The notes below the pieces were generated by a model that saw nothing but the letters and a program-made list of their open reading frames with translations, searched no databases and had not been told where the DNA came from. A program made the position numbers and the translations under genes. DNA of 64,000 nucleotides from Sulfurifustis variabilis. GTDB lineage: Bacteria; Pseudomonadota; Gammaproteobacteria; Acidiferrobacterales; Sulfurifustaceae. The stretch spans positions 1,116,001-1,180,000 of the forward strand of contig NZ_AP014936.1 in the NCBI RefSeq assembly GCF_002355415.1, given 5' to 3'. Positions 41,669 to 60,074 of this stretch are shown one piece after another; within the stretch, counting starts at the first letter, position 1; each line of letters starts with the position of its first letter.

Positions 41669-41722
41669 AGGAGGGGGACGCTCGCTGAGCCGTCGTGTCG
41701 CCCGCCGCAACACTCACCGAAG

Positions 41723-41918
41723 TCTCAGGCCGGTCTCCGGGCTCGCGAGCGGGCTTGCGCCGGCGGATCGCCTTCCCGCGGAGCTCTGTGCTCGCGCAGT
41801 GGCGGAGTGATCCGCTGTGACTCGCTTACCGTTGCGGGGGCAGCGCCGGCATTGCGAAGGATCGCGCACCGGCTTCCCGTTTCATTCCGCGGAACGAGAG
41901 TCCGCGGAACACCTGAGA
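41723..41918 (-). promoter_or_regulatory. Cobalamin (adenosylcobalamin) riboswitch
   Basis: Read on the minus strand, the leader contains the conserved cobalamin-riboswitch core: GGGAAGCCGGTG, then CCGGCGCTGCCCCCGCAACG, GTAAGCG, the B12-box GCCACTG (41803-41797), GGGAAGGCG and GAGCCCGGAGACCGGCC. The closing P1 stem pairs 41918-41912 (TCTCAGG) with 41729-41723 (CCTGAGA). It lies about 110 nt upstream of btuB and about 10 nt after the predicted start site. Confidence 0.95.
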
Positions 41919-41935
41919 GCTGTGTAAGCGCCCGA

Positions 41936-47939: not shown

Positions 47940-49094
47940 ATGAGCCGGTTCCCTTCTCTTTCGAACCTTGGCGCGGGCTGCGGCCGGACCGCCGCGGTGG
48001 CGCTCGTCCTCGTCCTGGCCGGCTGCTCTTCGGAATCGAGCAGTCACGCGAAGCCCCCGGGCCCCAAGCCGCCGAATCACCTCGTCGAGCTCGCCTCGGT
48101 GAGTCGCGAGCTGCTCCAGTACACCGCCGACCGCGAGGGTACGCTGCGCGCCCTGCGCGAGGTGAAGGTGTACAACCAGGAGGAAGGCAGCGTGCTCGAG
48201 GTGCGGGTTCGCGAGGGCGACGCGGTCGCGAAGGATCAGGTGCTGGCGCGCCTGGACGACCGGCTCCTGCGTGCCGAGCTCGACAAGGCCATCGCGACGC
48301 TGCGCCAGGCGGAGGTGGACCTCGAGCGCCTCGAGCGGCTCTACGGCCGGCGGCTGGTCGCCGAGGAGGCGGTGACGCGGGCGCAAACCAATCTCGAGGT
48401 GGCGCGCGCCAGCGAACGGGTGCTGCGCACGCGGGTGTCGTACATGACCATCACCGCTCCCTTCGCGGGGCGCGTGGCGGCGCGGCTCGTCGAACCCGGC
48501 GACGTGGCGCCCAAGCACACGCATCTGCTGACGGTGGTCGATCCATCCGTGCTCGTCACCGACGTGCAGGTGTCCGAGCTCGTGCTGCCGCGTCTCCGGA
48601 GAGGCGACCGTGCGGGCGTGCGCATCGACGCGCTCGGACTGGACGTCTACCGGGGCGAGGTGTTGCGCATCTACCCCACGGTCGACCCGGTCACCCGGCG
48701 CGGCCGGATCGAGGTGGCGCTGAAGCCCGTGCCGCCCGGCGCGCGTCCCGGCCAGTTCTGCCGGGTGACGCTCTACGCCGCCGGGCGCGAGCACCTCGTC
48801 ATCCCGTACGCGGCCCTGCGGCGGGACGCCAAAGGCGAGCACGTCTTTCTGTACGAGCCGGCGAACGGGGCGCCGGGCGGCCACGTGAAGCGGGTCGATG
48901 TGCGAAGCGGCCTGCGTCTCGCCGAGCGCGTCGAGATCCGCGAGGGACTCGCCCCCGGCCAGAAGGTCGTGGCCAGGGGATTCATAGGCCTGTCCGACGG
49001 TCAGAAGGTGCAGCCCGTATCATCGGAGCCGGGTACGCCATCATCGGAGCCGGGTACGCCCACGCCTGCGGAAGCGAAGGCAGCCGATGCGTAG
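47940..49094 (+). CDS. RND efflux periplasmic adaptor (lipoprotein)
   Basis: This 384-residue membrane fusion protein has an N-terminal signal with lipobox VLAGC, so it is anchored in the inner membrane. Barrel-sandwich halves are EGSVLEVRVREGDAVAKDQVLARLD and YMTITAPFAGRVAARLVEPGDVAPK, with an alpha hairpin (about 100-155) between them. The C-terminus has a duplicated SSEPGTP (see repeat). It overlaps the RND permease gene by 8 bp. The pump substrate is unknown, and no outer-membrane factor gene is in the window. Confidence 0.9.
   Translation: MSRFPSLSNLGAGCGRTAAVALVLVLAGCSSESSSHAKPPGPKPPNHLVELASVSRELLQYTADREGTLRALREVKVYNQEEGSVLEVRVREGDAVAKDQVLARLDDRLLRAELDKAIATLRQAEVDLERLERLYGRRLVAEEAVTRAQTNLEVARASERVLRTRVSYMTITAPFAGRVAARLVEPGDVAPKHTHLLTVVDPSVLVTDVQVSELVLPRLRRGDRAGVRIDALGLDVYRGEVLRIYPTVDPVTRRGRIEVALKPVPPGARPGQFCRVTLYAAGREHLVIPYAALRRDAKGEHVFLYEPANGAPGGHVKRVDVRSGLRLAERVEIREGLAPGQKVVARGFIGLSDGQKVQPVSSEPGTPSSEPGTPTPAEAKAADA
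49020..49061 (+). repeat. 21-bp tandem duplication at the adaptor C-terminus
   Basis: Two copies (49020-49040 and 49041-49061) differ only in the last base. They encode SSEPGTP twice in frame, so the repeat only lengthens the disordered tail. Confidence 0.9.
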
Positions 49095-52000
49095 GGGCGG
49101 GCTCGCAGCCTGGTCCATCCGCCATCCGGTCTCGACCCTGATGCTCACCCTGACCGCGGTGGTCCTCGGGATCTTCGCGCTCGGGCGGCTCTCGATCGAT
49201 CTCCTCCCGCACATCATCTACCCCCAGGTCCGCGTCCGCGTCATCGACCCGGGCGTCGCGGCCACCATCATGGAGGACCGCATCACCCGGCAGCTCGAGG
49301 AGCAGCTCGCGATCACCGAGGATGCCGTCGGCATCGAGTCGACGACGTCCGAGGGGCAGTCCTACGTCCTGCTCGATTTCGACTACGGCAAGGACATCGA
49401 TCTGGCGCTGCGCGACGCCTCGACGCGGCTCGACCGCGCGAAGCGTTTTCTCCCGACGACGATCGACCCGCCGATGATCTGGAAGTCGGATCCGTCCCAG
49501 ATCCCGGTCATGGAGTTTCTCGTCACCTCGACGCTCATGGACCTCGTGGAGCTGCGCACGTGGACCGACGACCACTTCGCCAAGCAGTTCCTGAACCTGC
49601 CCGGCGTGGCCGCGGCCGAGGTCGGCGGCGGGCTCGTGCGCGAGATCCAGATCCTGCCCGATCAGCGGCGGCTCGCGGGCCTCGGTCTTTCGGTGAACGA
49701 CGTCATCAACGCCGTCCGCCGCGGAAACGAGGACGCGCCGGGCGGCCGCCTGCGGATGGGTGGGCAGGAGTACGCAAGCCGCACCGCCGGCCGGCTCACG
49801 AACGTCGCCGCGATCGCCGCGCTGCCCGTGCGGCTGCCGAGCGGCGAGAGCATCCCGCTCGCCGAGATCGCCTCGGTTTCGGACAGCCACGAGGAGGAAC
49901 GCATCCGCGCGCGCTTCAACGGCACGCCGGGCATCAAGCTCGCGGTCCAGAAACAGCCGAACGCGAACACCGTCGAGGTGACCGAGCACGTGAAGGCGCG
50001 GCTGGCGTGGCTGCGCGCCAACGACGTGATCCCGAAGGGCGTGCAGCTGCACCAGATCTCGGACCAGTCGATCTACATCCGCCAGTCGCTGTCGAACGCC
50101 ACGCAGGCGGCGGCCAGCGGCGCGATCCTCGCGATGGTCGTCGTGTACCTGTTCCTCGGCAGCATCCGGGGCACCCTCATCATCGGCACCGCGATCCCGA
50201 TCTCGATCATCGTGACGTTCGTCATCATGGCGCTCGGCGATCTCACGCTGAACATCATGACCCTCGGCGGGCTCGCGCTCGGCATCGGCATGCTCGTGGA
50301 CAACACGATCATCATGCTGGAGAACATCGCGCGTCACCGGAGCGCCGCGGCGCGCGCGAGCCCCGGACCGGATCCCGGCGGGGACGCTCTGGCCGTGCCG
50401 GTGGCCGCCGCCGCCGAGGTGACGAGCCCGATCATCGCCTCGACCTCGACCAGCCTCGCGGCGGTCGTGCCGTTCCTCTTCATCTCCGGACTGATCGGGC
50501 TGCTGTTCCGCGAGCTGATCTTCACCATTTCCGCGGCGATCCTCGCGTCGCTCCTGGTCGCGGTGACGCTCGTCCCCGCGCTCGCGGCGCGCATGAGCGG
50601 AGAGGCGCGCGGCCGGGCGCACGACCGGGTGGCGCGGATCATGGATCGTCTGCAGCAGCGCTACGCGAGCGGGGTGTCGCGCCTGCTTGCGCGCTCCGGC
50701 CTCGTCATCGCGACGGCGTTCCTGCTGCTCGCCGTCGTCGGCCTGCCGACGTTTTTCACGAGCAAGCAGGACTTCCTGCCCACGATGGACGACGGCCGCA
50801 TCAACGTCAGCGTCACGACCGATCCGGGCGTGTCGCTCGACGCGATGGACGCCGCCGTGCGTACGCTCGAACGCCTCGCGCACGAGCAGGGCAGCGTCGA
50901 GAGCGTGTACACGCTCGTCGGCGGCGCGATCTTCGGCCGTACCGAGCGCGAGACGCCGAACCGGAGCTCCCTGAACGTGCAGCTCGTGCCGCTCGACGCC
51001 CGCGACGTGAGCGGCGAGCAGTGGGTGAAGGACTACCAGCGCGCGGTCGAGCAGGCACGGCTGGCGGGATTGAAGGTGCGCGCACGCACGGCGGGCATCC
51101 GCGGCATCCGCACCTCGCGCGCCGAGGAGGACATCAGCCTGCGCGTGCAGGGGCCGGACCTCGATCGCCTGGCGGCGATCGGCGAGAACCTCGTGCGCCG
51201 GCTGCAGGGGCTGCCCGGCGTGCGCAACCTGCGTCACTCGCTCGAGGAGTCGCGCCAGGAGTTCGCCATCGAGATCGACCGCGCGCGGGCCGCCGAGCTC
51301 GGCATCGACGTGGCCGATGTCGGGCGCGCGCTGCGCGTCGCGCTCGACGGGGTGATCATCGGCGACTACCTCGAGGGCGAGCGGGCGTACGACATCCGCG
51401 TGCGCCTGCCGCAGACGGAGATCGACAACCCGGAGGCCCTCGGCCGGATACTCCTCTTCGGCGAACTGCGCGACCGGCCGGCGGTGTACCTGCGCGACGT
51501 CGCGCGAGTCGGTATCGTGCAGGCGCCCGCCGAGATCATGCGCGACCGCCAGGCGCGGATCGTCGAGATATCGGCCGCGCTCACCAAGGAGCTGCCGCTC
51601 GGCGAGGTGGTCAAGGCGATGCACGAACGGCTCGAAGGCTACGAGCTGCCGTCCGGCTACCGCATGTACTCGGGCGGCGCCGAGGAGGCGCTGGCCAAGG
51701 GGCGCCGGCTGACGGGAACGCTGCTCGGCCTCGCCCTGTTCCTCGTGTTCGTGGTGATGGCCGTGCAATACGAGTCGCTGCGCAACCCGACCGTCATCAT
51801 GCTGAGCGTGCCGTTCGCGCTGATCGGCGTCTCGGCAGCGCTCTGGCTGACCGGGCTGCCGCTTTCCATGCCGGTCTGGCTCGGCCTCATCATGCTCGCC
51901 GGCATCGTGGTGAACAACGCGATCGTGCTGGTCGAGTACATCGAGCTGCGCCGCGCGATGGGCGAGCCGGTCAAGGAGGCGATCGTGAACGCCGCGCGCC

Positions 52001-52239
52001 TGCGGCTGCGCCCCATACTCATGACCACGCTCACCACCGTCATCGGCATGGCGCCGCTGGCGCTGGGGCTGGGCGAAGGCGCCGAGATGCTCCAGCCCTT
52101 GGCGGTGACGGTGGTCGCGGGCCTCGCGTTCTCGCTGCTCGTGAGCCTCGTGCTCGTGCCCGCCATGTACCTCGCCCTGCGCGGGCGCGGCCCGGTCACC
52201 GCAACCCTGGAACAAAGCGGGGAAGCGGTGCGTCTATAA
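49087..52239 (+). CDS. RND efflux permease
   Basis: This 1050-residue inner-membrane proton antiporter of the AcrB/HAE superfamily has twelve helices and two large periplasmic loops. It has the family start RHPVSTLMLTLTAVVLGIFALGRL, LPGVAAAEVGGG, and helix-4 GIGMLVDNTIIMLENIARH. The second acidic residue of the usual VDD pair is Asn (LVDN), a variant common in this subfamily. Helix 10-11 motifs include NNAIVLVEYIELR. It shares the operon with its adaptor; soxYZ follows after 56 bp with its own -10 box. Confidence 0.92.
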   Translation: MRRGGLAAWSIRHPVSTLMLTLTAVVLGIFALGRLSIDLLPHIIYPQVRVRVIDPGVAATIMEDRITRQLEEQLAITEDAVGIESTTSEGQSYVLLDFDYGKDIDLALRDASTRLDRAKRFLPTTIDPPMIWKSDPSQIPVMEFLVTSTLMDLVELRTWTDDHFAKQFLNLPGVAAAEVGGGLVREIQILPDQRRLAGLGLSVNDVINAVRRGNEDAPGGRLRMGGQEYASRTAGRLTNVAAIAALPVRLPSGESIPLAEIASVSDSHEEERIRARFNGTPGIKLAVQKQPNANTVEVTEHVKARLAWLRANDVIPKGVQLHQISDQSIYIRQSLSNATQAAASGAILAMVVVYLFLGSIRGTLIIGTAIPISIIVTFVIMALGDLTLNIMTLGGLALGIGMLVDNTIIMLENIARHRSAAARASPGPDPGGDALAVPVAAAAEVTSPIIASTSTSLAAVVPFLFISGLIGLLFRELIFTISAAILASLLVAVTLVPALAARMSGEARGRAHDRVARIMDRLQQRYASGVSRLLARSGLVIATAFLLLAVVGLPTFFTSKQDFLPTMDDGRINVSVTTDPGVSLDAMDAAVRTLERLAHEQGSVESVYTLVGGAIFGRTERETPNRSSLNVQLVPLDARDVSGEQWVKDYQRAVEQARLAGLKVRARTAGIRGIRTSRAEEDISLRVQGPDLDRLAAIGENLVRRLQGLPGVRNLRHSLEESRQEFAIEIDRARAAELGIDVADVGRALRVALDGVIIGDYLEGERAYDIRVRLPQTEIDNPEALGRILLFGELRDRPAVYLRDVARVGIVQAPAEIMRDRQARIVEISAALTKELPLGEVVKAMHERLEGYELPSGYRMYSGGAEEALAKGRRLTGTLLGLALFLVFVVMAVQYESLRNPTVIMLSVPFALIGVSAALWLTGLPLSMPVWLGLIMLAGIVVNNAIVLVEYIELRRAMGEPVKEAIVNAARLRLRPILMTTLTTVIGMAPLALGLGEGAEMLQPLAVTVVAGLAFSLLVSLVLVPAMYLALRGRGPVTATLEQSGEAVRL

Positions 52240-52791: not shown

Positions 52792-53109
52792 ATGGCAAGA
52801 AGCATGAAGGTACGCACCCGCTCGGGCGACGGCGGCGTGGAGGTGCTCGTCCTCATCAGCCACCCGATGGAAACGGGCCAGCGGGTGGACAAGCAGACGA
52901 AGCAGAAGATTCCGGCCCACTTCATCCAGAAGGTCGTGCTCGAGCACAACGGGAAAGCGGTGGCCACCGCCAACCTGGGGCCCGGCGTCTCGGAGGACCC
53001 GCTCCTCGGCTTCCAGCTTGCCGGCGGGAAGAACGGCGACAAGATCCGGATCTCGTGGACCGACAACAAGGGCGAATCGGGTTCGACCGAGGCGAGCGTC
53101 AACGCCTGA
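52792..53109 (+). CDS. soxZ: Sulfur carrier complex protein SoxZ
   Basis: This 105-residue protein binds SoxY as a heterodimer. It has VLVLISHPMETGQRVDKQTKQKIPAHFIQKV and RISWTDNKGESGSTEA, both typical of SoxZ. There is no signal peptide, as expected, because it is exported with SoxY by the Tat route. A strong terminator follows. Confidence 0.95.
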   Translation: MARSMKVRTRSGDGGVEVLVLISHPMETGQRVDKQTKQKIPAHFIQKVVLEHNGKAVATANLGPGVSEDPLLGFQLAGGKNGDKIRISWTDNKGESGSTEASVNA

Positions 53110-53176: not shown

Positions 53177-55144
53177 TTACTGGAAGCTCTTGCGCACGAT
53201 ACCCGCCGCCAGCAGGGCCGCGCCGTAGGCGGCGTGTTCGGATCGCGGTTTCTGCAGCCGGACGCCGAGCAGGCGTTCCCGTATGCGCGTCCAGGCGCGG
53301 TTGCGGCTGCCGCTGCCCGTCGTCCAGATGGCCGATACCTTCGGCGCTCCGAGCTCGGCCAGAAGCCGGTAACCCTGGGCCTCGATGCGCGCGATGCCTT
53401 CCAGGATGCCCTGAAAGAACATCACGCTGTCGCCGGGCAGCGGCTCGAGGCGCGGCTCCTTCTCGGGGTCGGCGAGGGGGAAGCGTTCGCCGATATCCGG
53501 CAGCGGGTAGTACTCGAGGTCCGTGGGCTGATCGGGGGTGAGGAGCGGCGTCATCTCGGTCATCTGCTCCTCGCTGAAGTACTGCCTGAGCACGCCGCCG
53601 CCCGAGTTGGAGGCGCCCCCCGCGAGGAAGTGCCGCCCGAGTCGATGGCTGTACACGCCGTGCGGCGGCGAGAAGACGGGCCGCTCCGAGAGGAGCTTGA
53701 GGACGAGCGTGGTCCCGAGCGAGGTGACGCCGTGCCCCGGCGCGCTGGCGCCGGCGGCGAGGAACGAGGCCACGCCGTCGCTCGTGCCGGCCGCGATCTC
53801 GGTATCGGCCGGGAGCCCCAGTTCCCCGGCCACCTCCCCGGACAGCGTGCCGATCACGTCGCCCGGCGCGTGCACGTCGGGCAGCCAGGCCCCCCGGACT
53901 TCGAGCCCGGCAAACCACTCGGGCCAGGCAAGCCGCTCCACGTCGTAGCCGAGCTTGAGGCAGTTGTTGTAGTCGCTGTGTCCATAGGTCCCGGCCAGGC
54001 GGCCGGCAAGCCAGTCGGCCTGATGCAGCGCGTGCGCCGCGCGCGCGGCCGACTTCGTTCCCTGCAGCCAAAGCAGCTTCGCCAGGCTCCCGGTCGCGCC
54101 GTGCGCGGCCGATTTCGGGTCGGCGACGCCCGCGATGCGTTCCGCCTGGGCTTGCGCGCGCGCGTCGTTGTACATGAGCCCGGGCGTCACCGGGTTTCCC
54201 TGCTTGTCGCACAGGAGCAGCGTCGCGGATGTGCCCGCGATGGCCAGCCGCCGCACGCGCCGGGCGTCGATCTGTCCCGCGACGTTCTTCAGGCAGGCGT
54301 GCATCGCGGCCCACCACTGCATCGGGTCCTGCGTGACCTCGGCGCCGTTCCGGGTCGAGGGCGGGAGGGGCGCCTCCGCCTGTGCCAGGACCGCGCCGGC
54401 GGCGTCGATCGCGACCGCGCGACAGCCGCTGGTGCCGATGTCGATCCCGATGTACGCGTCGCGTGTGGGCCCCGGCGCGGGCTTCGGCGGCGCCGGCGGC
54501 GCAGTCGGTTTCGCGGCGCCCCGTGCGGCCGCCTCGGCCACCGGCTGGCGCTTGCGCCGCAGCATGCGGAAGCGCTCCGAACGGGTGGAGGCCGGGGCCT
54601 CGTCCGGGATCCCGTCGTCAGCCGGCGCTCTCGGCGCTTCCGGCATCGACTGCGCCTTCTTCGCCGCGCCCGACGTCGTTCCCGACGGCCGGGTCTGTGC
54701 CGCCTGCGGAGGCTCCCCGCGTCCGGTCGGCACCGCCTGCACTTCGCGCGGGAGATCGTCCGGCGGGGGCGGCGGCTCCCGCCAACCGGGGCGGCGATAC
54801 TCGGCCGTCACCGTGGTGTACACGCCCCCGCGCACGTTGAACAGCGCCCGCAGGCGCATGTAGCGCGGCTGGGTCGCGGCGACGAGGTCGTTCAGGACGG
54901 CGTTCGTCACCTTTTCGTGGAAGTGCCCCTCGTCCCGGAAACTCCAGATGTAGAGCTTGAGCGACTTCAGCTCCACGCAAAGCCGGTCGGGCACGTACTC
55001 GAGCAGGAGCGTGGCGAAGTCCGGTTGACCGGTCTTCGGGCACAGACAGGTGAACTCGGGCGCCTCGATCTCGATGATATAATCCCGGTCCGGCTGGGGG
55101 TTCGGGAAGGTCTCGAGGGTCTTCGAAGGAGTGGTGGGCGGCAT
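53177..55144 (-). CDS. Fusion of QueF (preQ0 nitrile reductase) and FGGY carbohydrate kinase
   Basis: This is one uninterrupted 655-residue frame. Residues 1-118 are a complete unimodular QueF domain: [20 protein letters not shown] carries the catalytic Cys35 and Asp42, followed by [18 protein letters not shown] with His76/Glu77 and [12 protein letters not shown]. QueF reduces preQ0 to preQ1 in queuosine synthesis. Residues about 119-228 are a Pro/Ala-rich, partly basic linker. Residues about 229-655 are an FGGY kinase: [52 protein letters not shown] with the catalytic Asp near 456, and [11 protein letters not shown]. It resembles xylulo- or ribulokinase-type enzymes; the substrate is unknown. 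The linker is in frame with normal codon use, so I see no sign of a sequencing error joining two genes. Confidence 0.9.
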
Positions 55145-55219: not shown

Positions 55220-58200
55220 ATGCGGCTTAAAACCATTCGGCTCTCCGGCTTTAAGTCCTTCGTCGATCCCACCACCATCCCCATCACCGGCAACCTGATC
55301 GGCATCGTCGGCCCCAACGGCTGCGGCAAGTCGAACATCATCGATGCCGTGCGCTGGGTCATGGGCGAGATGTCCGCCAAGCACCTGCGCGGGGATTCGA
55401 TGGCGGACGTCATCTTCAACGGCTCGAACGCGCGCAAGCCGGTGGGCAAGGCGATGGTCGAGCTGGTGTTCGACAACTCGGACGGGAGCGCGGGCGGTCA
55501 GTACGCGCAGTACACCGAGATCGCGATCAAGCGCGAGGCCGGTCGCGACGGTCAGTCGGATTACTTCCTCAACAAGACGCGCTGCCGCCGCAAGGACATC
55601 ACCGATCTCTTCCTCGGCACGGGCCTCGGCCCGCGCGCGTACTCCATCATCGAGCAGGGCATGGTCACGCGCATCATCGAGGCCAAGCCCGAAGACCTGC
55701 GCGGTTTTATCGAGGAGGCGGCCGGCATCTCCCGCTACAAGGAGCGCCGGCGGGAAACCGAGAACCGCATCAAGCACACGCAGGAGAACCTCGCGCGCGT
55801 CGAGGACATCCGCAAGGAGCTCGAGACGCAGCTCTCGCGCCTCAACAAGCAGTCGCGCGCGGCGACGCGCTACAAGGAGCTCAAGCAGGAAGAACGGCTC
55901 GTCCGCGCGCAGCTCCTCGCGCTGAAGTACCGCGAGCTCGACGGGAAGCTCGCGGCGCAGGACGCCGTCATCCGCGAGCACGAGACCGCGCTCGAGGCCG
56001 CGCTCGCGGCGCAGCGCGAGGTCGAGGCGCGCATCGAGCAGCTGCGCGCCGAGCATGCCGAAGCGCTCGACAGGCAGAACACGGTACAGGCCGAGTACTA
56101 CACGGTCGGCAACGAGGTGTCGCGCATCGAGCAGGCGATCGAGCACCTTCGCGAGACGCGCGAGGCGCTGAAGCGCGAGCAGGACCAGCTGAACCGCACC
56201 TGGGCGGAGGCCGAGGCGCATCTCGGCGCCGACCAGGCGAGATTGCAGGAGGCGGAGCAGCGCCTGGCGGACATCGCACCCGATCTCGAAAGGCACCGGA
56301 GCGGGCGCGAGGCCGCGGCGGCGCGGTTGCGCGACGCGGAGGCTGCGATGCAGGCGTGGCAGGAGGCGTGGGAGTCCGCCAGCCAGGCGGCCGCGGAGCC
56401 GACCAAGGCGCGCGAGGTGCAGACGGCCCGCATCCAGGGGCTCGAGTCGCACGTCGCCCAGCTGCGCGATCGCGAGGCCCGGCTCGCGGAAGAACTCGCG
56501 ACCGTCGAGGCGGAGCTTCGCGACGCGGGTCTCGACGCCGTTCGCGACGAGGCGCGCGCCATCGACGAGGCGTGCGCCTCGCTCGAAGCCGCGATCCAGG
56601 AGGCCGGCGAGCGCCTGCAGACCGCGCGCGCCGAGCGCGAGGCGACGACCCAGCGCCTCGAGCAGCTGCGCGGGGCCGTGCAGTCGAACGAGGCCCGGCT
56701 CGCGGGACTCCAGGAGCTGCAGGCCGCGGCGGAGGCGCGCCACGACGCCGGCATCGTCGAGTGGCTGACCCGCGTCGGACTCGCCGACTCGCCGCGGCTC
56801 GCGAGCCGCATCCAGGTCGAATCCGGCTGGGAGACGGCGGTGGAGCGGGTGCTGGGCAGCCGGCTGGCCGCGGTGTGCGCGGAGCGATTCGGCGAAGCGA
56901 CAGCGGGCCTCGACGAGCTGAAGCCCGCGCGCCTGACCGTCGTCGATCTCACGGCCGGCCGCTCGCACGACGCCGTCACCGGCACGCTGATCCACAAGGT
57001 GAAGTCCGATCTCGACCTGGCACCCCTGCTCGCCGGCGTCCACACGGCGGACACGCTGGAGGAGGCCCTGTCGTGGCGGAACGAGCTCAAGGGCCAGGAG
57101 TCGATCATCACGCGCGACGGCGCCTGGGTCGGGCGCAACTGGCTGGACGTCGAGTACGCGGCGGGCAGCGAGCGCGGGTGGCTCGCGCGGGAGCGCGAGA
57201 TCGAAGGCCTGCGTGCCGCGAGCGCCGAGCTCGCGCGGGAAATCGAATCGGCTGCCGCGCAGCTCGCCGGGCAGTCGGACGCGCTCGCCGGCCTAGAGCG
57301 CCGGCGCGAGGAGCTCGCGCGCGAGCTCAACGAGCGACAGCGCGCCCGCGCCGAGCTGCGCGAGCGGCTCGGTCATCGCGAGGCCCGGCTGAACCAGCTC
57401 GAGGGAAGGCGCGCGCAGATCGGCACGGAGCAGCAGGAGATCGCGGCGCAGCGCGCGCGCGACGAGTCCGAGATCGCGGCGGCGACCGAGCGGCTTCGCC
57501 AGGCCGAGGCCGACAGCGGCACGCACGAGGCGCAGCGCGCGGAGCTGTCCGGCCGGCGCGCCGCGGTGCAGGAGGCCCTGGCCGCCGCGCGCGCAGCGGA
57601 AGCGACCGCCCGCGAGCGGGAGCACGAGCTCGAGATCGAGCGGCGCACGCTCGAGACGGCGCGCGAGTCGGTGCGCGCCAGCATCGCGCGGCTCGACGGC
57701 CAGCTCGCCGGGCTGCACCAGCGGCGCGACGAGCTCGCCGCGATGCTTTCCTCGGAGACGCAGGAGAACGATCTGCGGGCACAGCTCAACGAGCAGCTGG
57801 AAAAGCGCCTCGAGGTCGAGGAGCGGCTGGGCGCGGCGCGCAAGGCGACGGGCGAGGCGGATGCGCGCCTGCGCGAGCTCGAGCAGCAGCGTCACAGGGA
57901 CGAGCAGCAGGTCCAGGAAATCCGTGGGGGGCTGGAGTCCGAACGCGTGGTGCGCCAGGAGCTGGTGGTGCGGCGCGACACGTTCGCGGAGCAGTTGCGC
58001 GAAATGGACGCCGAGCCGGCGCAGGTGCTCGCGGAGATGCCCCAGGAGGCGACCGAGACGGGCTGGGCGGAGCGCCTGGACCAGATCCTCGCGCGCATCG
58101 AGCGGCTCGGGCCGATCAACCTCGTCGCCATCGAGGAGTTCCAGGAGCTGTCCGAGCGCAAGGGCTACCTCGACAAGCAGTCCGAAGACCTGTCGCAGGC

Positions 58201-58720
58201 GCTCGCCACGCTCGACGAGGCGATCCGCAAGATGGACCGCGAGACGCGCACGCGCTTCAAGGAGACCTTCGACAAGGTCAACGAGAACTTCCAGCACTTC
58301 TTCCCGAAGCTCTTCGGCGGCGGCAGCGCGTATCTCGAGCTCACGGACAACGATCTGCTCGAGACGGGCGTCACGGTCATGGCGCGCCCGCCGGGCAAGC
58401 GCAACAGCACCATTCACCTGCTGTCCGGCGGCGAGAAGGCGCTGTCGGCGGTGGCGCTCATCTTCTCGATCTTCGAGCTCAACCCGGCGCCGTTCTGCCT
58501 GCTCGACGAGGTCGACGCGCCTCTCGACGATGCGAACGTCGAGCGCTACGGCGAGACGCTCAAGGCGATGTCGGAGCGCACGCAGCTCGTGTACATCACC
58601 CACAACAAGATCAGCATGGAGATGGCGGAGCTTCTCGTCGGCGTCACCATGTCGGAGCCGGGCGTGTCGCGCCTGGTCGCCGTCGACGTCGAAGAGGCCA
58701 TGCAGATGGTCGCGCAGTAG
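55220..58720 (+). CDS. smc: Chromosome segregation protein SMC
   Basis: This 1166-residue SMC ATPase has Walker A GPNGCGKSN at 31-39, a long coiled coil rich in Glu, Arg and Ala, a hinge near residues 515-660, a second coil, then signature LLSGGEKAL near 1068 and Walker B FCLLDEVDAPLDDAN near 1092. It organises and compacts chromosomes, normally with ScpA/ScpB; those genes are not here. Many Gammaproteobacteria with zipA and ligA next to smc show this same order. It starts divergently from the QueF fusion, 75 bp away. Confidence 0.96.
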   Translation: MRLKTIRLSGFKSFVDPTTIPITGNLIGIVGPNGCGKSNIIDAVRWVMGEMSAKHLRGDSMADVIFNGSNARKPVGKAMVELVFDNSDGSAGGQYAQYTEIAIKREAGRDGQSDYFLNKTRCRRKDITDLFLGTGLGPRAYSIIEQGMVTRIIEAKPEDLRGFIEEAAGISRYKERRRETENRIKHTQENLARVEDIRKELETQLSRLNKQSRAATRYKELKQEERLVRAQLLALKYRELDGKLAAQDAVIREHETALEAALAAQREVEARIEQLRAEHAEALDRQNTVQAEYYTVGNEVSRIEQAIEHLRETREALKREQDQLNRTWAEAEAHLGADQARLQEAEQRLADIAPDLERHRSGREAAAARLRDAEAAMQAWQEAWESASQAAAEPTKAREVQTARIQGLESHVAQLRDREARLAEELATVEAELRDAGLDAVRDEARAIDEACASLEAAIQEAGERLQTARAEREATTQRLEQLRGAVQSNEARLAGLQELQAAAEARHDAGIVEWLTRVGLADSPRLASRIQVESGWETAVERVLGSRLAAVCAERFGEATAGLDELKPARLTVVDLTAGRSHDAVTGTLIHKVKSDLDLAPLLAGVHTADTLEEALSWRNELKGQESIITRDGAWVGRNWLDVEYAAGSERGWLAREREIEGLRAASAELAREIESAAAQLAGQSDALAGLERRREELARELNERQRARAELRERLGHREARLNQLEGRRAQIGTEQQEIAAQRARDESEIAAATERLRQAEADSGTHEAQRAELSGRRAAVQEALAAARAAEATAREREHELEIERRTLETARESVRASIARLDGQLAGLHQRRDELAAMLSSETQENDLRAQLNEQLEKRLEVEERLGAARKATGEADARLRELEQQRHRDEQQVQEIRGGLESERVVRQELVVRRDTFAEQLREMDAEPAQVLAEMPQEATETGWAERLDQILARIERLGPINLVAIEEFQELSERKGYLDKQSEDLSQALATLDEAIRKMDRETRTRFKETFDKVNENFQHFFPKLFGGGSAYLELTDNDLLETGVTVMARPPGKRNSTIHLLSGGEKALSAVALIFSIFELNPAPFCLLDEVDAPLDDANVERYGETLKAMSERTQLVYITHNKISMEMAELLVGVTMSEPGVSRLVAVDVEEAMQMVAQ

Positions 58721-58841: not shown

Positions 58842-60074
58842 ATGGATCTGCAGCTCGCACTGCTGCTCATCGGATCCATCATCGTCGCGATCGTCGCGAT
58901 CACCGCCGTCGACAGGGGCCGCATCGCCCGGTCGCTGCGCGGGGGGATTTCCTTCAGGAGCCGGCCGGCCGCGGTGATCAGCCCGGCCAGGCGCGAGCCG
59001 GTCGTGCGGCCCGATCCCGCCGTCCCGGCGCCGCCCGTGGATGCCGAGCGGCGGTTTCTGAAAACCGAGCCGTCGCTGCCGCTCGAGATCGCCCCCGAGC
59101 TCGAGCCCGAGCAGGACCCGCTGTTCGAGGAGCTGGAGAGCATCGAGCGGATTGCCAACCGGCCTTTGAACCTCAATCCCGGGTTCGATCCCCCGGGAAC
59201 CGGTCCCGAGGCGGCCGTGCCCGGCCGGCAGACGGTTCCGGACGAGAGCGTGGATTTCGTGCTGCACCTCCCCGGGCCCGGCCCCGTCTCGCGCCGCACT
59301 GCGCTCGGCATCTACAAACAGAACGAGTACAAGCTCGAGTACCCGCGGGAGATTTTCGGGCAGCGCTACCAGACGAGCTTCTGGTCGACGCTCTCGCACG
59401 ATTCGGACGCCACCAACTACAGCGATCTCAAGCTCTCCATCCAGCTCGTCGACAACGTGCACGGACCGATCGGCGAGAGCGAGCTCAACACCTTCGTGCA
59501 GGTCGGCCTCAAGCTCGCCGACGCCCTGCACCGTCCCGCGAAGTTCTCGCTTCCGTTCGAGCAGGCGCTCGAGCGGGCCAAGGCGCTCGCGAAGTTCTGC
59601 GACGAGTACGACGTGATCGCGGGAGTGAACGTCGCGTCCGACCCGGACAGCCCGTTCAAGGGCCACGCGGTCGTCGCCGCCATGCAGCGCGCGGGGCTGG
59701 AGCTCGGCGCCATGAACATCTACCACAAGCGTGCGGACGGTCGGCTCCTCTACAGCCTCTCGAACCTCTACAAACCCGGCAACTTCAACCCGGCCGAATG
59801 GGAGACGTTCCGGACCTCCGGGCTCGCGCTCTTCATGAGCGTGCCGTGCGTGGAGGACCCCGCCGTGGTGTTCGCGAAGATGGTGGAATCCGCCGCCGCG
59901 ATCGCCGGCTTTCTCGGCGGCCGCCTGCTGGACCAGGACAACCGTGCGTTGACCGAAAAAGGCATCGCCGCCATTCGCGCGCAGATCCAGGGCATCGAGG
60001 GTCGGATGCGCGCCTTCGGGGTGCCTCCGGGCGGCGAGTCCGCGCTCCGTCTCTTCGGCGCGGGACTGAACTGA
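58842..60074 (+). CDS. zipA: Cell-division protein ZipA
   Basis: This 410-residue protein has an N-terminal membrane anchor (LQLALLLIGSIIVAIVAITAVD) facing a cytoplasmic Pro/Glu-rich linker (about 40-150) and a C-terminal FtsZ-binding domain (about 195-395, with SDLKLSIQLVDNVHGPIGESELNTF and WETFRTSGLALFMSVPC). ZipA tethers FtsZ filaments to the membrane. Its place between smc and ligA is the usual one in Gammaproteobacteria and supports the taxon call. The sequence is divergent, so the identification rests on topology, the C-terminal domain and the neighbours. Confidence 0.88.
   Translation: MDLQLALLLIGSIIVAIVAITAVDRGRIARSLRGGISFRSRPAAVISPARREPVVRPDPAVPAPPVDAERRFLKTEPSLPLEIAPELEPEQDPLFEELESIERIANRPLNLNPGFDPPGTGPEAAVPGRQTVPDESVDFVLHLPGPGPVSRRTALGIYKQNEYKLEYPREIFGQRYQTSFWSTLSHDSDATNYSDLKLSIQLVDNVHGPIGESELNTFVQVGLKLADALHRPAKFSLPFEQALERAKALAKFCDEYDVIAGVNVASDPDSPFKGHAVVAAMQRAGLELGAMNIYHKRADGRLLYSLSNLYKPGNFNPAEWETFRTSGLALFMSVPCVEDPAVVFAKMVESAAAIAGFLGGRLLDQDNRALTEKGIAAIRAQIQGIEGRMRAFGVPPGGESALRLFGAGLN

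Follow-up and report, generated by a model that had tools for sequence, protein, structure and literature searches.

A single open reading frame of Sulfurifustis variabilis encodes a predicted preQ0 reductase of the type II QueF family joined to a kinase of the FGGY family. This arrangement is best explained by the capture of a Calvin-cycle accessory kinase beside queF, followed by one fusion. The product probably carries two enzymes that work independently of each other, and its kinase would feed D-ribulose, or a pentulose close to it, back into the Calvin cycle. What is new here is the QueF-FGGY fusion, the association of the kinase with RuBisCO and a conserved RFxMLxR motif in the linker between the two domains. 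In the literature searched, from which most subscription journals are absent, there was no report of such a fusion or of a link between the kinase and RuBisCO, and no paper that names both 'QueF' and 'FGGY'. S. variabilis skN76 is described as a sulfur oxidiser that grows autotrophically and has two sets of RuBisCO genes (PMC5024460). Its genome is complete and consists of one contig of 3,958,814 bases, of which a stretch of 64,000 nucleotides, referred to here as the window, was analysed. The features of the window that are relevant to the fused gene are given in Table 1.

Table 1. The fused gene, its parts and other features of the window (positions within the window)
Feature	Position	Strand	Basis or remark
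Fused QueF-FGGY gene	53177..55144	-	single open frame; 655 codons, 655 aa
QueF type II domain, residues 1-120 (predicted preQ0 reductase)	54785..55144	-	TIGR03139; Cys35, Asp42, His76, Glu77
Pro/Ala-rich disordered linker, residues 121-229	54458..54784	-	pLDDT and low identity
Linker motif RFRMLRR, residues 191-197	54554..54574	-	conserved among fused linkers
FGGY kinase domain, SePSK/AtXK-1-like, residues 230-655	53177..54457	-	Asp235, Asp456; profile, sequence and Foldseek matches
smc, divergent neighbour	55220..58720	+	TIGR02168, 1099.9 bits
zipA-like gene, downstream of smc	58842..60074	+	TIGR02205, 108.7 bits, under the cut-off of 119.65
SoxZ (thiosulfate oxidation)	52792-53109	+	119.2 bits; the fused gene runs towards it
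RND efflux adaptor and permease pair	47940-52239	+	
Cobalamin riboswitch	41711-41931	-	105.5 bits; the window's only riboswitch at gathering score

The original prediction placed QueF and an FGGY kinase in one frame of 655 residues, and this frame is indeed open throughout. Its N-terminal part matches the NCBIfam model of QueF-II (TIGR03139) with 172.9 bits, where 86.9 are required; residues 8-118 cover positions 4-114 of the 115 in the model. The Pfam QueF model is matched with 108.7 bits. The nearest solved structures of this domain are single-unit QueF chains, for instance 4f8b, at about 122 bits. Catalytic completeness had also been claimed for it and is confirmed, as Cys35, Asp42, His76 and Glu77 are invariant in 28 of the 28 readable fused proteins. 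The motif [11 protein letters not shown] is near-invariant in the QueF part of the same proteins; this motif and the catalytic Cys, Asp and His-Glu presumably have the roles assigned to them in QueF. In effect, the protein shares with type II QueF a full-length domain, a score far above the curated cut-off and the same catalytic residues, and differs from it by the addition of a C-terminal linker and kinase. The fused gene is the sole PF14489 match in the genome, where homologues of TGT and QueC are also found, which makes a queuosine pathway plausible. At gathering score, the window contains two tRNAs and, as its only riboswitch, one of the cobalamin class; no preQ1 riboswitch was detected.

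The C-terminal part matches Pfam FGGY_N (95.9 bits, residues 231-462) and FGGY_C (52.0 bits, residues 473-647), both above cut-off. By sequence, AtXK-1 and SePSK are the solved structures closest to it, at about 326 bits, and a Foldseek search with the predicted model returned SePSK (5htn) first, with a TM-score of 0.90 on the target and 41% identity. Asp456 aligns with Asp221 of SePSK and is kept in 27 of the 28 readable fused proteins. Thus, the earlier description of a complete FGGY kinase with a catalytic Asp near this position stands, while the P-loop-like start that it proposed for the domain does not, since in FGGY kinases ATP is bound in the actin-like domain (PMC4880283). The name xylulokinase was considered as well and not adopted: the domain has the FGGY fold, and XylB (TIGR01312) is its best NCBIfam kinase model, but the score of 156.4 bits is far below the cut-off of 380.25, so that the protein is not an equivalog of XylB.

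In the AlphaFold2 model, made from 55 aligned rows, the mean pLDDT is 86.1 and two confident domains are separated by a region (residues 136-214) where pLDDT falls under 50. The linker consists of 23% Pro and 17% Ala, and its mean pairwise identity among fused proteins is 30%, where QueF reaches 77% and the kinase 63%. A long, disordered, Pro/Ala-rich linker agrees with what had been proposed. By contrast, the sequence [12 protein letters not shown], which had been singled out in its middle, is not what relatives conserve; they conserve RFRMLRR instead.

The fusion is real and old. In the order, Acidiferrobacterales, 53 of the 57 genomes have a match, and 46 were examined in detail, the others being five without a good relative and six more of family f2. 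Counting genomes with the same QueF-FGGY order, which had been suggested as a check, gives 29 of these 46, the genome of the window included. By family, the fusion occurs in 15 of 16 genomes of f1, 7 of 7 of f7, 4 of 4 of f5, 1 of 1 of f3, 2 of 5 of f6, 0 of 11 of f2 and 0 of 2 of f4. In a FastTree phylogeny of 54 rows (42 of the order, four of its 46 being left out, and 12 of the class), all 29 fused proteins are found in one clade with a support of 0.81. The unfused protein of one genome, G009, is nested inside this clade, the two nearest sisters of the clade are unfused, and sequences of the class intermix with the unfused ones of the order. This tree fits one origin of the fusion and one later split, or an assembly fault, in G009. 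No fusion was observed among 80 loci of the class; in a separate set of named loci, 8 of 80 are fused, and these are the eight best-scoring.

Both domains are under purifying selection. In seven pairs, dN/dS was 0.04-0.17 for QueF and 0.05-0.23 for the kinase, well below 1, and 0.25-0.65 for the linker. A frameshift in the linker, which would have undone the original prediction, is excluded by these values and by the fact that 28 other genomes of the order are fused as well. The other finding named beforehand as damaging, that relatives encode the domains as separate neighbouring genes, does hold outside the fused clade. Nevertheless, the nearest relatives are fused, and the fusion stands. Nothing other than the rarity of the architecture speaks for an error of sequencing, assembly or stop-codon reading, and with a complete genome in a single contig, the identical fusion in 28 further genomes and selection acting on both domains, that explanation is already refuted.

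The presence of the kinase follows RuBisCO, not queuosine, and is independent of QueF. Among 369 genomes of the class, RuBisCO was found in 129 of the 141 with the kinase and in 46 of the 228 without it. When one genome is taken per family (157 families), which is the sole way in which kinship was handled, the counts are 56 of 59 and 18 of 98, respectively. These figures rest on PF00016 matches, with all forms of RuBisCO counted together and seven weak matches (E worse than 1e-50) dropped; the sets with kinase, RuBisCO, cysZ or queF only were assigned by hand from search tables, and kinase fragments below E 4.5e-62 were left uncounted. Six further matches are middling (E 4e-55 to 4e-76) and may be RuBisCO-like proteins or pieces; without them, the counts become 125 of 141 against 44 of 228 for genomes, while for families they are 54 of 59 with the kinase and 18 of 98 without it. 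As a control, cysZ shows a weak link, with RuBisCO in 53 of 85 families with cysZ and 21 of 72 without. Within the 85 families that bear cysZ, RuBisCO is present in 45 of 48 with the kinase and 8 of 37 without, and within families that have QueF-II, in 54 of 56 and 15 of 44; the QueF-II group without the kinase comes from a set that was defined by E-value and confirmed in part, as described below.

Exceptions exist on both sides. RuBisCO was not found in 12 genomes that have the kinase. Four of them are less than 90% complete, in two (G212 and G322) the start motif of the kinase is degraded, and one (G407) has a kinase of the sugar-operon type; the remaining five are near-complete and have no evident excuse. 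Among the 46 RuBisCO genomes without the kinase, one, G091, has the start of a kinase at a contig end. In G212 and G322 (loci L117 and L120), a relative of the kinase lies beside smc and cysZ, and neither RuBisCO nor QueF was detected. Catalytic residues of the start motif have been lost in these two relatives (at L120, the start region alone is seen), which are possibly decaying or repurposed.

These distributions bear on the suggestion that the tether reflects linked substrates, the kinase acting on a queuosine-type nucleoside or on a sugar released by salvage and the fusion coupling consecutive steps. Such a reading would draw on the strong adjacency of queF and the kinase across the class, on their fusion in one clade and on the gene for GluQRS, which is found at 17 of 80 loci. 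A queuosine-salvage kinase would be expected to track the queuosine pathway, and it does not, as QueF occurs without the kinase, while the kinase tracks RuBisCO. Furthermore, the kinase persists without an adjacent type II queF in two autotrophs, G109 and G351, where it lies beside smc, a long type I-like QueF is encoded elsewhere and RuBisCO is present. The best structural match of the domain is, in addition, a D-ribulose kinase, and 25 of 29 queF-only loci keep queF near smc with no kinase. TGT was found in 12 of 12 genomes tested and thus does not discriminate. Taken with this evidence, a role of the kinase in queuosine metabolism is highly improbable, and the suggestion of linked substrates is not supported.

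The surroundings of the genes point to the other possibility raised originally, namely, that the kinase was simply captured. At 80 loci of the class, picked in a non-random way from the 141 kinase genomes and often truncated where a contig ends, the kinase is a gene of its own; in 70 of them, queF is found upstream of it on the same strand. The distance from match to match is up to 100 bp in 56 of the 80 and up to 450 bp in 14; one pair is far apart, and nine stretches contain no queF. Between the queF stop and the kinase start, the median gap is 18 nt (67 loci measured). Near the kinase, according to labels given by eye and partly checked (one example each of cysZ, cbbY and gluQ was verified), smc is found at 69 of the 80 loci, cysZ at 46, cbbY at 32 and gluQ, the gene for GluQRS, at 17; with at least 150 bits required, these numbers are 68, 46, 31 and 15. 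In the smc cluster, which has 145 members, smc and the kinase are always on opposite strands. The cbbY homologue that was checked matches CbbY 4uar with 194.5 bits. CbbY, which we take to be a xylulose-1,5-bisphosphate phosphatase and a Calvin-cycle accessory, is a different enzyme from the kinase and merely its neighbour. A cluster labelled by eye as SoxZ-like also occurs in the neighbourhood analysis, at 10 loci that include the one in the window.

The same slot can be observed without the kinase. Thirty QueF-only genomes, 15 with and 15 without RuBisCO, were chosen by hand from a set defined by E-value, in which a few may hold pieces of the kinase; 29 of the 30 gave a locus and were thereby confirmed. 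At 25 of these 29 loci, smc is within a flank of 1.5 kb of queF, and at 10, cysZ is downstream of queF. As queF keeps its position next to smc even where there is no kinase, and as the surroundings recur, the kinase can be regarded as an optional gene of a conserved smc-queF-(kinase)-cysZ slot. Its presence there tracks RuBisCO, and simple capture is thus the favoured of the two possibilities originally raised.

The substrate of the kinase is suggested by its closest characterized relatives. In the structure paper on SePSK (Synpcc7942_2462) and AtXK-1 (At2g21370), SePSK has D-ribulose kinase activity and prefers D-ribulose among five compounds tested, AtXK-1 gave little response to D-ribulose, and the physiological role of both is termed unknown (PMC4880283). 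These cyanobacterial and chloroplast proteins, which are D-ribulose-kinase-like, provide the best sequence and fold match to the kinase of the window. Among the equivalents of SePSK ligand residues, Asp8, Asp221 and a Ser near position 72 are kept in the fused kinases. The window kinase differs from both proteins in its fusion to QueF and in a Gly at the equivalent of Ser222, a residue that is a ligand of D-ribulose in SePSK (PMC4880283). This Gly is seen in 27 of 28 readable fused kinases, while Ser is kept in 65 of 68 readable kinases of the class. Gly at this position is found in Bradyrhizobium-type kinases too, so the substrate of the fused clade may have shifted.

Consequently, a kinase that serves autotrophy by acting on something else, such as another pentulose, a tetrulose or 5-deoxyribulose, possibly to give a 1-phosphate for an aldolase, was also weighed. 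Apart from the change of Ser222 to Gly, the genes around Alphaproteobacterial relatives agree with it: in Bradyrhizobium and on rhizobial plasmids, the kinase belongs to sugar operons in which its neighbours include class II aldolase and HAD genes, and members of the family therefore need not all produce ribulose 5-phosphate. For instance, sugar operons at three rhizobial loci (L218, L219 and L203) combine a relative of the kinase with genes for a class II aldolase and a HAD protein (TIGR01459), and the two of these loci that are plasmid-borne have rhamnose genes nearby. However, the sole aldolase cluster among the 25 neighbour clusters listed comprises seven loci, six of the Bradyrhizobium type and that of G407, and holds no RuBisCO-bearing gammaproteobacterial locus; the preference of SePSK among the five compounds (PMC4880283) is also for D-ribulose. 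A different substrate is hence rather unlikely. Given the Gly, the aldolase operons, the weak response of AtXK-1 and the kinase genomes that lack RuBisCO, D-ribulose is nonetheless put forward only as a presumed substrate.

The linker has one property that simple tethering does not account for, and this counts against the preferred reading of two independent enzymes. Of 28 readable fused linkers, 22 contain RFxMLxR, and shuffling the linkers in 2000 rounds never produced it; it was absent from the separate-gene loci scanned, and one chance match was seen outside the linker at a fused locus (L141). Its retention in a linker of such low overall identity could mean that the linker is the selected part, and that the motif docks the chain to a partner, so that the fusion would serve location rather than chemistry. 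In that case, the linker might act as a scaffold that holds the kinase and QueF on a partner from the Calvin cycle or translation, perhaps RuBisCO, and, in autotrophs mostly devoid of detected CsoS2, ribulose would be re-phosphorylated at the site where it is lost. In some fused members, the motif is partly repeated. By contrast, it is missing in three members of f5, in G005 and in G050, and G003 has RLRML in its place. On comparison by eye, the motif also does not fit the RuBisCO-binding motif reported for CsoS2, RxxxxxRRxxxxxxGK (PMC10614612). Moreover, only 3 of the 29 fused genomes gave a CsoS2 match, while 10 of the 17 unfused ones did. For these reasons, docking of a CsoS2-like kind to RuBisCO was not adopted, and docking in general is considered unlikely. 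Across the order, CsoS2 is found in 20 of the 57 genomes, namely, 16 of f2, one of f4 and three of f7, and only the three of f7 are fused.

An internal start that would yield a separate kinase was considered as well. A GGAG precedes the ATG of RFRML in the window, but, as judged by eye from its DNA and from a protein alignment of relatives, it appears to derive from Ser-Glu codons, and most relatives have SDRF; this candidate was rejected.

Two independent enzymes on one chain thus remain the probable reading, and the following course of events may be proposed. Two neighbouring genes that worked independently would have been joined a single time, in an ancestor inside Acidiferrobacterales, when queF lost its stop codon and a disordered linker was acquired, giving a bifunctional protein in which both domains are presumably active. 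Judging from its family and its complete active site, the N-terminal QueF would convert preQ0 to preQ1 for tRNA queuosine. The C-terminal kinase would act on D-ribulose or a pentulose close to it, and its product would most likely be D-ribulose 5-phosphate. In this way, ribulose that is lost when phosphatases strip ribulose phosphates would be brought back into the Calvin-Benson-Bassham cycle. No shared substrate would be required.

Fused proteins are commonly expected to share a pathway. In the present fusion, the two enzymes most likely belong to unrelated pathways and came together through the proximity of their genes, and it is therefore a caution for this rule. The most useful result is the association of the kinase with RuBisCO. 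As the kinase tracks CO2 fixation and not the tRNA pathway, it probably recycles a sugar of the Calvin cycle, and the strength of this link across gammaproteobacterial families suggests a testable role for SePSK and AtXK-1, namely, the salvage of ribulose for the Calvin cycle.
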